Shown here: positions 10,792 to 64,000 of the stretch, piece by piece
Layout of the letters: every line of letters starts with the position of its first letter
How positions within the stretch are numbered: position 1 is the stretch's first letter
Origin: Fictibacillus solisalsi
Lineage (GTDB): Bacteria; Bacillota; Bacilli; Bacillales; Fictibacillaceae
Length of the DNA stretch: 64,000 nucleotides
Direction: 5' to 3'
Assembly (NCBI RefSeq): GCF_900103485.1
Contig: NZ_FNHW01000002.1
Span: forward strand, 248,001-312,000
Program-made: the position numbers and the translations under genes
The notes under the pieces: model-generated
Database searches by the model: none
Told to the model about the DNA's origin: nothing
Seen by the model: the letters and a program-made list of their open reading frames with translations, nothing else

Positions 10792-10860
10792 GAGTAGTTA
10801 CTGGACGACGTTTATGTATTTCTTACTGGGGAATTAGAAATAATAGTTCACATAATTAGG

Positions 10861-38724: not shown

Positions 38725-38922
38725 ATGAATGACTACAGTGTAGTACCTGACAAAGGGGTCAATGGCTGGATTGTAAAAATTCAGGATGTGGCGCCTACAG
38801 AATCATACCCAAGCAGGGCAGAAGCGATTGCTGAAGCGGAACGGATGGCGAAGGAAGATTCACCGAGCAGGGTGCTTGTGTATGATACAAAGCTGGAAAT
38901 TGAGGAAGAAAAATCATTTTAA
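38725..38922 (+). CDS. DUF2188-domain protein
   Basis: 65 residues. The pattern VVPDKGVNGWIVKI, a helix with SRAEAIAEAERMAKED, then SRVLVYDTKLEIEEE is the DUF2188 fold (beta-beta-alpha-beta), common as single small proteins in Bacillales. Function unknown. A strong AAAGGAGG site precedes the ATG. It ends directly at a terminator. Confidence 0.82.
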   Translation: MNDYSVVPDKGVNGWIVKIQDVAPTESYPSRAEAIAEAERMAKEDSPSRVLVYDTKLEIEEEKSF

Positions 38923-38925
38923 GAG

Positions 38926-38956
38926 AAAAACCCCTTTCAACAGGAAAGGGGTTTTT
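38926..38956 (+). terminator. Terminator after the DUF2188 gene
   Basis: A 13-bp perfect stem AAAAACCCCTTTC with GAAAGGGGTTTTT. Confidence 0.92.
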
Positions 38957-39113
38957 GGCATAAAAAAAGGAGCCTTGGGACCAAGACTCCTTCAATCTCA
39001 TGCTTCTTCAACTTACGTGGTTTCTTGCTATTCTTTCGTCCTACAAACTTACTTTCATTCACACTTCCACCATTAGGTCCATCTCTCGGTTCTTCGCAGG
39101 GCTCGGAACCCAT
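38937..39113 (-). CDS. PRDGP micro-ORF 1
   Basis: Starts MGSEPCEEPRDGPNGGS and continues with a lysine-rich segment (SKFVGRKNSKKPRKLKKHE) to a stop at 38937, 58 residues. GGAG lies about 8 nt before the ATG. The SEPxEEPRDGP stretch matches the two neighbouring micro-ORFs. The predicted minus-strand terminator (38962-38992) lies before the stop codon, so a normal transcript would lack a stop; the 3' part may be eroded. Confidence 0.35.
   Translation of the reverse strand: MGSEPCEEPRDGPNGGSVNESKFVGRKNSKKPRKLKKHEIEGVLVPRLLFLCQKPLSC
38962..38992 (-). terminator. Minus-strand terminator of the micro-ORF cluster
   Basis: On the minus strand AAGGAG...TTGG pairs with CCAA...CTCCTT and is followed by seven T. 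It would end transcripts from the PRDGP cluster. Confidence 0.65.
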
Positions 39114-39465
39114 CCGTTCCGCTCCATGACAAATCACTCCAATTTGGGTCTGAATAGTGTTTATTCCTTTTTCATTAAAAGTTGCACAGGTGTTTCATCC
39201 GTACACTGCTTTTACTGCCTTTTACTTCATTCCCTAAATCGCTCTTGCATACTTACATGTACTTCCAGGTCCATCTCTTGGATCATTGTATGTCTCGGAA
39301 CTATAAACGTTCTTACCCATTGCAAACCCTCCAGTATATGACTCAGTAATACATCCTTCATAGAGCTGACTTTTTAAAACATAACGCGGTGTGGCTAATT
39401 TTCGTCTTGCTATTTGTTACTTAATTTCTGTAATGCATTCACTATTTCGGTCCATCTCTTGGCTC
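39076..39465 (-). repeat. Three spaced copies of the PRDGP-coding motif
   Basis: The 17-nt core GGTCCATCTCTYGGNTC (plus strand) occurs at 39076-39092, 39268-39284 and 39449-39465, about 180-190 nt apart, and always in the frame that encodes (D/E)PRDGP. The spacer DNA is not visibly repeated. The 38957-39593 interval contains nothing else that I can identify. Confidence 0.75.
39234..39320 (-). CDS. PRDGP micro-ORF 2
   Basis: 28 residues: MGKNVYSSETYNDPRDGP followed by GSTCKYARAI. A textbook GGAGGG site is 6 nt before the ATG. It shares the SETxN(D/E)PRDGP core with micro-ORF 3 at the protein level, while the codons differ at synonymous positions. No signal peptide. No known family. Confidence 0.5.
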   Translation of the reverse strand: MGKNVYSSETYNDPRDGPGSTCKYARAI

Positions 39466-39498
39466 ATTGGATGTTTCGGAACGGTAGTTCTTACTCAT
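39442..39498 (-). CDS. PRDGP micro-ORF 3
   Basis: 18 residues in full: MSKNYRSETSNEPRDGPK. GGAGGG lies 7 nt before the ATG. It is the first of the three on the minus strand, 95 nt downstream of the methyltransferase gene with no clear terminator between, so co-transcription is possible. Confidence 0.5.
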   Translation of the reverse strand: MSKNYRSETSNEPRDGPK

Positions 39499-39593
39499 CA
39501 CAATTCCCTCCATATGGTTGATATAGTGTTGCATAATTTGTTTTCCCGCTCATCCAAATTTAAAACTTGATTTACAATAAAATTTAAAAATTT

Positions 39594-40202
39594 TTAGAGC
39601 GGGTTGACGGCAGTTACAATCACCGCATTCACTGGCTTTAAGTCCAAAATGGTTTCAGTGATCTGTTCAAATTCTGCTTCTTTTAAATACAATGAAATGA
39701 TTTTGCTTATTTCTTCTGTTGTTTCATCATCTGCGCCCTTTTCATGAGGCTGAAGGGTAATAGCAATGCGTGCTCCGGGCTTCATTAACTGCTTGATGGT
39801 TGTAAGGTCAGCAATGGGATCTTTCCAAATAAGGATCGAGTTGACGGAATAAACACCGTCAAACTGCATGGATTTCTCAGCCGAGGTAATGGGACCGTGA
39901 AACAGTTCCACACGTTCTTCATTGATATATTCTTCATTTCGTGCGGCGGCCAGTTTTTTCATTTCTTCTGAGACGTCAAAACCAACAACATGGCAGGAAG
40001 GGTAGGTGCTGCACACATATTCAATGCCCACGCCGGGGCCGAAGCCCACTTCAAGAAGACCGTCATTGTTTTTGGGCTTTAGCATGGAAATGGTTTTTTC
40101 GTTTAATTCTTTGTTTTCATTGGACATGATTTTTCCCGCTAGCTTGCCAAGCAATCCCTCCGGTTTTTCAAATTGCTCTGATATCTTTTTTCGAATGCTC
40201 AT
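39594..40202 (-). CDS. Class I SAM-dependent methyltransferase
   Basis: 202 residues from the ATG at 40202, preceded by GGGGGCG; the frame extends upstream to 40388 without a site. The Rossmann motif I is LLEVGFGPGVGIEYV, motif II acidic end VVGFDVSEEM, and post-motif region FDGVYSVNSILIWKDP, as in UbiE/MenG-like small-molecule methyltransferases. Substrate unknown. It sits directly upstream of the PRDGP micro-ORFs on the same strand and downstream of a broken SDR gene. Confidence 0.82.
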   Translation of the reverse strand: MSIRKKISEQFEKPEGLLGKLAGKIMSNENKELNEKTISMLKPKNNDGLLEVGFGPGVGIEYVCSTYPSCHVVGFDVSEEMKKLAAARNEEYINEERVELFHGPITSAEKSMQFDGVYSVNSILIWKDPIADLTTIKQLMKPGARIAITLQPHEKGADDETTEEISKIISLYLKEAEFEQITETILDLKPVNAVIVTAVNPL

Positions 40203-40324: not shown

Positions 40325-40607
40325 TTACTGAGCCGTATAGCCGCCATCCACAAGCAAATTGGTTTTCCAGTGATAAAACTGGCATCATCAGAAGCTAAGA
40401 AAGCAACGGCTTTGGCTACTTCTTCCGTTTTTTTTCAGTCTGTCCACGGGATGCAGGGAAATCAGGATGCCAACTGTTGACCGCGTTCATCATGGATGTC
40501 GCGATCAGCACGTGTGCACCACTATTAACCATTTCCCGTACAGTGGCTTCACCAATCCCGCTGGATCCCCCGGTTACAATGGCTGCTTTTCCTTTTAAAC
40601 CCATCAT
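40325..40607 (-). pseudogene. Short-chain dehydrogenase remnant with internal deletion
   Basis: The start is a clean SDR N-terminus, GKAAIVTGGSSGIGEATVRE (NAD-binding TGxxxGIG). It then jumps after about 40 residues into unrelated frame, followed by an SDR C-terminus in a different frame: EEVAKAVAFLASDDASFITG, and after a further shift LLVDGGYTAQ with a stop at 40325. The central part, including the catalytic YxxxK, is missing. A normal SDR has about 250 residues. The gene is therefore a deletion derivative with frameshifts and cannot be functional. Confidence 0.85.
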
Positions 40608-40674: not shown

Positions 40675-41325
40675 TTACAGGCTATTTGTGTAGTTCTGGT
40701 TTTTTTTGAAAAAGTAGTAGGATGAAGCAATAGACAAAAGGGTCGAAATCACGATTACAGGAAAGATCAAATAGCTTCTCCATTCGGATGGAGCAAGCAG
40801 CGAAAGGATAATAATGATTCCCGCTGCGAAAAAGAGCTTGGCACTGAACCTGTGGGTCTTCTTCCAAACTTCTTCATCCGAAAGGGTCCAGGGGGTTTTG
40901 ATGCCAAAGAACCAGTTCTGCTTGACCTGTTGCATATAGTTTCCAAGAATAATAAACAGAAGGCCGAGTATGATGGGCATAATAAGTTTCATGGAAGGGG
41001 AGTACCCAAGTCCTGAACCAATAATCATGAGATTAATGACAAAAAACAGGGCCATCAGGCAATAATTAATGGCAAAATAGCTGCGGGAAAATTTTTTGTA
41101 GTTTTCTCGCTTTGGATCAATTCTCGGTAAAAAGTAAAGCGTCAGATAAACAAAAATCAAGAGTCCGAGGCTCATAGCCATGGCTGAAAACTTGGCGGCG
41201 TATCCATCGATGTCGCCGTTCGGACCCCAATGGATGGGCAATTGGGAAGGAAGCTGCGAATAGAATCCGAGCCAAATAGCTGCTGAAGCAAGAATGATTA
41301 AAATGGGAAAGACATGTTTTTTCAT
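40675..41325 (-). CDS. sdpI: SdpI-family immunity/membrane protein
   Basis: 216 residues with six membrane helices. The first segment has the DUF1648 pattern LPIHWGPNGDIDGY, and the second half carries the SdpI signature QNWFFGIKTPWTLSDEEVWKKTHR. In B. subtilis SdpI protects against the SDP cannibalism toxin and sequesters SdpR at the membrane. It overlaps sdpR by 4 nt (ATGA). No sdpABC toxin genes are present in the window, so the operon may protect against toxin from neighbours. Confidence 0.88.
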   Translation of the reverse strand: MKKHVFPILIILASAAIWLGFYSQLPSQLPIHWGPNGDIDGYAAKFSAMAMSLGLLIFVYLTLYFLPRIDPKRENYKKFSRSYFAINYCLMALFFVINLMIIGSGLGYSPSMKLIMPIILGLLFIILGNYMQQVKQNWFFGIKTPWTLSDEEVWKKTHRFSAKLFFAAGIIIILSLLAPSEWRSYLIFPVIVISTLLSIASSYYFFKKNQNYTNSL

Positions 41326-41609
41326 TTTTCATTCTCTCCTTTATGGATAGGATTGCTTTGCATAACACCAAAGAACCAATTCATCACGTCTTGGAACACG
41401 GTGGTATTAATTGAATAGATAATATACTGTCCTCGCTTTTCATCCTGTATAAGCTCTGTTTTCTTGAGGGTATTCAGATGATGGGAGATCGTTGGTTTTG
41501 TCATGTGGAAGTGATCAGCGATTTCCCCTGCCGTCATATCCCTGTTTTTTAGTAGATCCAGGATTTGGCGTCGGGTAGGATCGGCTAATGCCTTAAACAC
41601 CTCGTTCAC
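41322..41609 (-). CDS. sdpR: ArsR-family autorepressor SdpR
   Basis: 95 residues, an ArsR-type winged helix: FKALADPTRRQILDLL, recognition helix TKPTISHHLNTL, wing LIQDEKRGQYIIYSI. No metal-binding cysteine pair, as in SdpR. The start is GTG with AAAGGAGA 6 nt upstream. It is the first gene of a two-gene operon with sdpI. A perfect palindrome 26 nt upstream of the start is the probable operator for autorepression. Confidence 0.88.
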   Translation of the reverse strand: MNEVFKALADPTRRQILDLLKNRDMTAGEIADHFHMTKPTISHHLNTLKKTELIQDEKRGQYIIYSINTTVFQDVMNWFFGVMQSNPIHKGENEK

Positions 41610-56705: not shown

Positions 56706-56738
56706 GAAAGCGCCCTGAGTGTGGGGCGTTTTTTTGTG
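56706..56738 (+). terminator. Terminator after the GerPA-family genes
   Basis: GCGCCC/GGGGCGT stem with seven T. Confidence 0.8.
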
Positions 56739-56782
56739 TGCGGGTTGGGTAAATCTTTATCAAAAACCATCCCCAAAAAGGA

Positions 56783-63170: not shown

Positions 63171-64000
63171 ATGTCCTACACGATTAAAGATGTGGCCCAA
63201 AAGGCCAATGTCTCAGTGGCTACTGTTTCAAGAATTCTGAACAATCTGCCGGGCTATTCAGAGAAAACAAAAGAGAAGGTTCTGCAGGTTATTGCGGAAA
63301 TGGGGTATCAGCCAAATGCGATAGCCCGGGGCTTGATCAACAAAAAGACAAAAACACTCGGTGTGCTGCTCCCAGCCGTTTCAGATACCTTTGCATCGGT
63401 TGTTCTCAGCGGGATTGAAGATATGGCACATGAGCTCGATTACAGTGTAATGGTCTGCAATACGGATAAAGATGGAAAGCGAACAATGAAATACTTGCAG
63501 GCTCTCCGCGAAAAACAAGTGGATGGCATCGTTTTTGTCAGTGAATTTTTTAAGGAAGAATACTATAACGCCATCATTGCCATGAATCTTCCAGTCGTCC
63601 TTGTGTCAACCAAATCACAGTATGACATTCCTTTTATAAAAGTGGATGACAGGGAAGCAGTGTTCGATGGGGTCAATTATCTTCTTGAGAGAGGGCACCG
63701 TTCCATTGGGATGATTGCCGGGACAAAAGGGGACCCGATTGCCACATTACCCAGAATTGAAGGGTATAAACGGGCTCTTAAGGAAAAAGAGATCCCGGTG
63801 GACAAGAGAAAGATTGCTTTTGGTGATTTCGGATTTGAAAGCGGGATAACCGCCGCAAAGGAACTGCTGGACCAAAATGAGGACCTTACCGCCATTTTTT
63901 GTTCAAGTGATGAAATGGCTGCAGGTGCTCTGTCCTATCTGTACAGAATGTCAATCCGGGTGCCTGACCAAATCTCTATTATCGGATACGACAATACAAA
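63171..64000 (+). CDS. LacI-family transcriptional repressor (3' end missing)
   Basis: The frame is open from the ATG at 63171 to the window end, 276 residues visible. HTH TIKDVAQKANVSVATVSRIL at the N-terminus with hinge YQPNAIARGLINKKTKTLGV, then the periplasmic-binding-type sensor domain (VLLPAVSDTFASVVLSGIED; IFCSSDEMAAGAL). About 55-60 residues are missing. Such repressors usually control the sugar genes next to them, so those would be beyond 64000. The upstream operator suggests autoregulation. The AAAGAAGGG site is about 6 nt from the ATG. Confidence 0.9.
   Translation, partial: MSYTIKDVAQKANVSVATVSRILNNLPGYSEKTKEKVLQVIAEMGYQPNAIARGLINKKTKTLGVLLPAVSDTFASVVLSGIEDMAHELDYSVMVCNTDKDGKRTMKYLQALREKQVDGIVFVSEFFKEEYYNAIIAMNLPVVLVSTKSQYDIPFIKVDDREAVFDGVNYLLERGHRSIGMIAGTKGDPIATLPRIEGYKRALKEKEIPVDKRKIAFGDFGFESGITAAKELLDQNEDLTAIFCSSDEMAAGALSYLYRMSIRVPDQISIIGYDNT

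Follow-up and report, generated by a model that had tools for sequence, protein, structure and literature searches.

Coding and regulatory roles can be combined on one small RNA, as in the dual-function RNAs SR1/SR1P and SgrS/SgrT. Stem-loops at the 5' end of mRNAs, for example in the aprE leader, are known as stabilizers of messages in Bacillus, and in type III toxin-antitoxin systems the ToxI RNA consists of tandem structured repeats beside one protein gene. VcdRP is described as a further dual-function small RNA, which encodes a peptide of 29 amino acids (PMC8672173). For promoters of SigB in Bacillales, the reported consensus is KTTTW-N12-17-GGGWAW (PMC9847131).

Here we describe a locus with partial likeness to each of these systems, located in a window of 64,000 nucleotides (the whole stretch of DNA that was analysed) from Fictibacillus solisalsi. 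Like VcdRP, SR1/SR1P and SgrS/SgrT, it appears to unite an RNA-level function, here putative, with a short peptide on one transcript; unlike them, it has the coding segment inside a hairpin, and this unit is tandemly repeated. The likeness to SigB regulon transcripts of Bacillales lies in a promoter-like site that matches the above consensus. The first hairpin begins 8 nt downstream of the -10 box and is therefore expected at the 5' end of the transcript, as in the aprE-type stabilizers, but the element also contains an ORF and downstream repeats, which sets it apart from them. As with ToxI, tandem structured RNA repeats adjoin a single protein gene; however, they are hairpins of 100 nt rather than short pseudoknots, and the neighbour is a methyltransferase rather than a nuclease and lies upstream. 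We give a probability of about one half to the reading that the locus yields a transcript from a stress promoter, composed of tandem hairpins with nested short peptides, in which both the RNA and the peptide are constrained. The features are listed in Table 1.

Table 1. Features of the element and of the adjoining methyltransferase gene, numbered from the first nucleotide of the window
Feature	Position	Strand	Remarks
Methyltransferase gene	39594..40202	-	class I SAM-dependent, 202 aa, co-inherited partner
SigB-type promoter-like site GTTTTA-N13-GGGAAA	39542..39566	-	pattern match and conservation
Hairpin copy 1	39434..39533	-	outer helix TGCA.CACTAT / ATAGTG..TGCA; covariance model match 39432-39538
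Small ORF 1	39442..39498	-	18 aa MSKNYRSETSNEPRDGPK, inside hairpin 1, GGAGGG site
Hairpin copy 2	39252..39358	-	covariance model match
Small ORF 2	39234..39320	-	28 aa MGKNVYSSETYNDPRDGPGSTCKYARAI
Hairpin copy 3, frame broken	39064..39165	-	covariance model match and fold
58-codon ORF, ATG 39113	38937..39113	-	decayed copy, chance start, reads through terminator
Intrinsic terminator	38966..38993	-	12-pair stem, then T run

A sequence-only reading of the window had described three minus-strand micro-ORFs of 18, 28 and 58 codons as a cluster sharing a peptide motif. All three ORFs are present where it placed them, and the 18- and 28-codon ORFs do carry GGAGGG at a proper distance, with gaps to the ATG of 7 and 6 nt, respectively. 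Across the 4.8-Mb genome, the peptide motif pattern has three matches, all of them at this locus, and a check for conserved homologs in relatives showed that the cluster recurs in six of the seven genomes of the genus; it is thus not due to chance. ORF 2 is open in all six genus loci that carry the element. The ORFs indeed lie directly downstream of the methyltransferase gene, and nothing terminator-like was found between the two on that strand, just as had been stated; what has to be corrected is that a promoter-like site separates them. The 58-codon ORF, in turn, is not a third gene of this kind but a frame-broken copy. The apical loop of copy 3 in the window genome (G000), G003 and G004 lacks 1 nt relative to the other clade, which puts the original ATG (39127 in the window) out of frame. 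The present start codon was produced by the decay of this copy and is absent in G003 and G004.

The repeated unit is an imperfect RNA hairpin of ~100 nt that encloses a ribosome-binding site, a start codon and the PRDGP-coding segment. The earlier view that the repeat consists of the peptide motif holds insofar as the spacers are mostly unalignable between clades, and fails in that the copies also have ~40 nt before each ATG and ~25 nt past the motif in common. These stretches are the hairpin arms, and they mark the two ends of each island of conservation. In an alignment of the six genus loci, 30-column windows that start at columns 90-165 and so run through copy 1 show identities between clades of 0.91-0.99; the value reaches up to 0.89 in copies 2 and 3 and is mostly 0.45 or less in the spacers. 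Copy 1 folds as one long imperfect hairpin in all seven loci, that is, also in the locus of another genus (G040), with an outer helix (UGCA/UGCA and CACUAU/AUAGUG) followed by CCAU/AUGG, GG/CC, U-rich and apical helices. The outer helix in G040 is identical; the interior differs on both strands yet is still paired. The hairpins of copies 2 and 3 are similar but shifted in detail; in G005, copy 3 retains mainly the outer helix. A covariance model trained on the seven copy-1 sequences recovers 20 copies, all at full length, among which the 13 copies outside the training set score 27-59 bits. In the window, copy 1, itself a member of the training set, scores 128.7 bits; the untrained copy 2 reaches 44.1 bits (E = 8e-9) and copy 3 29.8 bits (E = 4e-5) with the same model (R1), copy 3 having a predicted fold of -31.8 kcal/mol. 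Moreover, copy 1 is nearly invariant at synonymous sites: its pS is 0-0.097, compared with 0.74-0.81 between clades for the methyltransferase gene, in the five genomes that remain when G005 and G040 are left out.

Ribosome site, ATG and frame are intact in 16 of the 20 copies. The original frame is lost in the other four, namely copy 3 of the window genome, G003 and G004 and copy 4 of G004, so the frame-disrupting changes between strains that the earlier reading had asked about are present there. All four frame-broken copies still fold into a hairpin (-27.3 to -32.2 kcal/mol). Because copies without the frame keep the fold, the RNA fold is probably the primary trait. One alternative is that the locus holds nothing but peptide genes, a tandem set of three microprotein genes of which two remain; the hairpin would then be a side effect of their similar sequences and of constraint on the region where translation starts. 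The intact ribosome site, ATG and frame in 16 copies fit this explanation, but the survival of the hairpin in the other four speaks against it, and so do the frozen synonymous sites of copy 1. It is also difficult to reconcile with the 3' arm, ATAGTGAATGC: in the clade of the window, a 1-nt difference shortens the C-terminal tail of ORF 1 so that the peptide ends after PRDGPK, and the arm, which spans the stop codon and continues behind it, is unchanged in sequence. The persistence of the hairpin beyond the ORF and the conservation at the nucleotide level are equally what is expected if the element is a noncoding structured RNA only, with ORFs incidental to a conserved sequence that has a purine-rich GGAGGG internal loop; the evidence bearing against this second alternative comes from the codons themselves (below).

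The decay of the copies has proceeded to different degrees. Copy 4 of G004 (L043 2766-2867, plus strand) is strongly decayed and apparently a tandem duplication of copy 3 with its spacer; its ATG and frame are gone, its ribosome site and motif are altered, and a C-to-U change adds an A-U pair to its fold. An apparent G-C to A-U compensation in this copy was dismissed, as it hinges on the alignment register. The pair at the base of the outer helix of copy 3 is U-A in G004 and C-G in the window. Since U-A is also found in copy 2 of the window's clade, and the 3' part of G004 copy 3 resembles copy 2, conversion between copies may have been involved.

We evaluated the pairing on all 20 copies, bearing in mind that the sequences behind this and every other test are few and come from close relatives. 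In an alignment fitted to the model, and therefore biased toward it, 88.5% of the cells are paired, compared with 30-37% in slid controls. Both sides have changed in 20 cells (8.4 expected; 0 of 500 shuffles), the covariation score is 0.174 versus 0.133 (0 of 500 shuffles), and seven pairs show both-side changes where 4.2 are expected (10 of 500 shuffles). The number of further pair types over the 20 copies is at the chance level (286 of 500 shuffles), and there is no covariation within copy 1. From the model-fitted alignment, RNAalifold predicts 14 pairs that include the outer helix, with a small local hairpin replacing the middle helices; from a plain MAFFT alignment of the 20 copies it predicts nine pairs and misses the long hairpin, which we attribute to misaligned 5' arms.

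In a half-swap test, folding is better when the 5' and 3' halves come from the same copy class than when they are exchanged between classes (the matched arrangement has rank 2 of 720; the outer arms alone also reach rank 2 of 720), a result that argues against peptide genes only. When the 5' half was shuffled by common permutations, an effect of this size was reached in 1 of 120 cases; the calibration of these permutations is good, with 7 of 120 falling in the best 5%. Single representatives gave ranks 4 and 16 of 720. The control with the 3' half complemented ranked 459 of 720, and that with the 5' half reversed ranked 3 of 720. Several of the pairing tests are not strand-specific: the antisense strand also passes the half-swap test, and it has the lower folding energy in 8 of the 19 copies scored. 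The excess of G-U cells over A-C cells (31 versus 7) favours the strand of the methyltransferase gene. Folding energies compared with those of synonymous recodings gave z values from -2.05 to +1.42 (16 copies), and the evidence from folding energy taken alone is weak; that the minimum free energy is not clearly below that of the recodings is a further point for peptide genes only. As in a dual-function RNA, conservation of the RNA goes beyond what coding would need, with the weak comparison to synonymous recoding as the exception.

There is also a signal at the peptide level. Among six orthologs of ORF 2, pN/pS is 0.31 in frame versus 1.32 and 0.80 in the other forward frames, and for the 11-codon core of copies 1 and 2 (12 sequences) it is 0.21 versus 20.96 and 1.36. 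In the reverse frame that shares third positions, pN/pS is low as well (0.59 for ORF 2 and 0.37 for the core). Column shuffles gave P = 0.021 for ORF 2, P = 0.013 for the core of copies 1 and 2, and 0 of 500 for 18 motif copies, which are related and partly decayed. The ORF 1 orthologs alone have a pN/pS of 1.00 (six sequences with few changes), and the three intact copy-3 ORFs have 0.72. Within the core of the 16 intact copies, third codon positions vary at 5 of 7 unpaired sites and first or second positions at 1 of 10 (P = 0.0175); among paired sites the figures are 2 of 4 and 6 of 12, and the greater variability of first and second positions at paired than at unpaired sites counts against our main reading. 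Copies with a broken frame show substitutions at first and second motif positions as well. These results support a peptide signal, besides the RNA signal, in ORF 2 and in the core of copies 1 and 2. The protein-level selection on a short ORF that characterizes dual-function RNAs is accordingly seen in these two sets, and is absent for copy 3 of the window.

The proposal of the sequence-only reading that selection acts on the peptide rather than the DNA can therefore be kept in its first half for ORF 2 and the core of copies 1 and 2, though not for ORF 1 alone or for intact copy 3. Its second half is contradicted by the frozen synonymous sites of copy 1, by the paired arms and by the decayed copies that keep the hairpin. 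The frame-specific pN/pS values also fit peptide genes only, and in view of the hairpin evidence above we consider that explanation rather unlikely. The pN/pS values of ORF 1 and intact copy 3 agree with a purely noncoding RNA. Against it stand the greater variation of unpaired third positions relative to unpaired first and second positions, the conservation of ORF 2 as an open frame in 6 of 6 loci, and the changes at first and second motif positions once the frame is broken; a noncoding RNA only is thus doubtful to us as well.

The pattern GTTTTR-N13-GGGWAM has a single match in the window, where 0.13 are expected (at least one match in 11 of 100 shuffles). GTTTTR-N13-GGGWA occurs at the same place in all seven loci, 8 nt before the outer helix, so that a candidate SigB promoter is found at a fitting place in every locus. 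Six of the seven sites fit KTTTW-N14-GGGWAW, and that of G040 departs in the last base. This looser pattern has four matches in the window versus 1.4 expected, a number reached in 7 of 100 shuffles, so that the weight rests on the conservation of the site. The other matches of this pattern in the window are at 10810-10834 (+), 56728-56752 (+) and 63747-63771 (-). A sigB gene is present in all 34 family genomes. A GGGTAC box is also found upstream of the methyltransferase gene in the six genus loci, with a -35-like match in four of them, and G040 has a second SigB-type promoter-like site (L046 2643-2667, plus strand) downstream of the element and before a small charged ORF. A terminator follows the last copy and is conserved across the six aligned genus loci. 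Positions 38931-38951 hold a small inverted repeat that scores as terminator-like on either strand, and a convergent DUF2188 gene (38725-38922, plus strand) lies just past the terminator.

The stress-type promoter-like site would also suit a ribosome-site switch or RNA thermometer, in which each hairpin masks the translation start of the ORF that it contains and exposes it when stress unfolds the RNA. As this explanation requires, folding predictions pair the copy-1 start codon in the three genus copies scored, but they leave the start codon open in G040 and, for copy 2, in both G002 and G005. Moreover, the predicted unpaired fraction of the ribosome site (26-68%; 10 copies) stays almost constant between 25 and 48 C, and in G040 the site becomes less open with warming. 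With accessibility inconsistent among copies and nearly flat over this range, the thermometer is not supported, and we hold such a switch to be very unlikely.

The reading that we prefer, a stress-promoter transcript of coding hairpins, can be outlined as follows. A SigB-type promoter, conserved as a site and presumably active, lies between the methyltransferase gene and copy 1. From it, a transcript of ~575 nt would start at the foot of hairpin 1, continue through two further hairpins with poorly conserved spacers, and end at the intrinsic terminator. Within each hairpin would lie a separate ribosome-binding site and start region together with a PRDGP-coding segment, and the same nucleotides would be doubly constrained, by RNA pairing (20 copies) and by a short hydrophilic, often Cys-containing peptide (copies 1 and 2). 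Under general stress, the tandem hairpins may act as a stable structured RNA that protects the 5' end, serves as a protein-binding platform, or both. The short peptides, those of ORFs 1 and 2, would also be translated from the hairpin RNA. A functional partnership with the methyltransferase may be added, with RNA, peptide or a small molecule as candidate substrates. If this reading is true, the locus represents an RNA element with nested peptides that matches nothing in the libraries searched, and its series of copies, from intact through frame-broken to heavily decayed, would allow RNA constraint and peptide constraint to be separated. A further lesson would be that the conservation of micro-ORFs recognized from sequence alone can simply mirror an RNA fold.

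To explore the distribution of the element, we searched 34 genomes of the family. The covariance model finds its 20 copies, one to four per genome, in seven of them, and an ortholog of the methyltransferase (at least 55% identity) is present in seven (G000, G002-G006 and G040). The two sets are identical, and the other 27 genomes, including G001 of the window's own genus, have neither. This shared occurrence suggests that element and methyltransferase are functional partners. Clear matches to the peptide profile lie directly downstream of the methyltransferase gene in all seven loci. In G040, the flanking genes on both sides are unlike those in the window's genus, which indicates that methyltransferase, promoter-like site, element and a terminator are grouped at a different location there. 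The methyltransferase matches Methyltransf_25 in Pfam (1.6e-10, searched with the longer ORF), and its AlphaFold model has a mean pLDDT of 82.5. More distant homologs occur in 10 further family genomes; for the three nearest (G014, G017 and G021), no such ORF was found in the 231-700 nt downstream, and the covariance model has no match in these genomes.

Searches with other models gave a similar picture. The peptide profile has three to four matches at E<=1 in six of the seven genus genomes, three per genome at the element locus; the fourth match in G000 and G005 (E = 0.44 and 0.67) is located elsewhere and was set aside as chance-level. Among the 34 family genomes, the profile matches clearly in G040 (E = 9.3e-6) and weakly in G019 (E = 0.069), and in 397 genomes of the order, a sample with only part of the family, it matches the own genome and one other weakly (E = 0.009). 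The weak matches in G386 and G019 were discarded, as the strings DGP, MQHY and SET are all missing from the three forward frames at these loci. A model built from all 20 copies found no further copies in the 34 family genomes and, under stricter filters, none beyond the own genome in the 397 order genomes. A dispersed palindromic repeat of the REP or MITE type was rejected, the matches being confined to one locus per genome. Overall, the tandem hairpins resemble an RNA element of narrow distribution, with short peptides possibly encoded in it, more than they resemble a plain cluster of peptide genes.

A bolder proposal is a new class of stress RNA made of tandem coding hairpins, whose nucleotides are selected both as fold and as peptide. 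These hairpins would be one half of an obligate module; the other half, a dedicated methyltransferase, would either modify the RNA or the peptide or be under the control of one of them. We regard this as speculative and improbable in its full form. A ribosomally synthesized precursor that the adjacent methyltransferase modifies (RiPP) would explain why methyltransferase gene and ORFs are found together as neighbours in 7 of 7 loci and why a conserved peptide core is present in multiple copies. However, the peptides have no leader-like part, a promoter-like site separates the methyltransferase gene from the ORFs, and no maturation enzyme, protease or exporter was recognized among the six neighbouring ORFs besides the generic methyltransferase, in agreement with the earlier statement that no other maturation enzyme or exporter is adjacent. 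The leader and core, dedicated enzymes and export of such systems do not appear at this locus, and a RiPP is extremely unlikely. As for the functions first suggested, a signalling peptide, a modified precursor or a spore protein, nothing was found in support.

In Rfam, no family comes near its gathering score: the five matches at E<=5 are all at or below half of it. The peptides have no match at E<=10 in Pfam, NCBIfam, PHROGs or PDB, and no match was found in phages, plasmids and viral contigs with the exact pattern or with blastn using the copy-1 region only. In the literature searched, PRDGP occurs in a single paper, on the zinc transporter ZIP7. A gapped pattern hits at least 118 stretches across genome contigs, mostly from GC-rich organisms among the matches listed, and was judged to match by chance.

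Farther upstream of the methyltransferase gene, the window contains at ~40340-40607 (minus strand) what is left of a gene for a short-chain dehydrogenase; a piece of 63 codons matches adh_short at 6.1e-8. G003 has a 250-codon dehydrogenase copy at the same place (L042), and the window gene thus looks broken. At 40675-41609 (minus strand), a membrane protein of the SdpI family (PF13630) adjoins an ArsR-type regulator, a pair that we take to resemble the SdpR/SdpI immunity pair. SdpI-like proteins are also encoded upstream of the methyltransferase gene in G002, G003, G004 and G006, and other genes occupy this place in G005.
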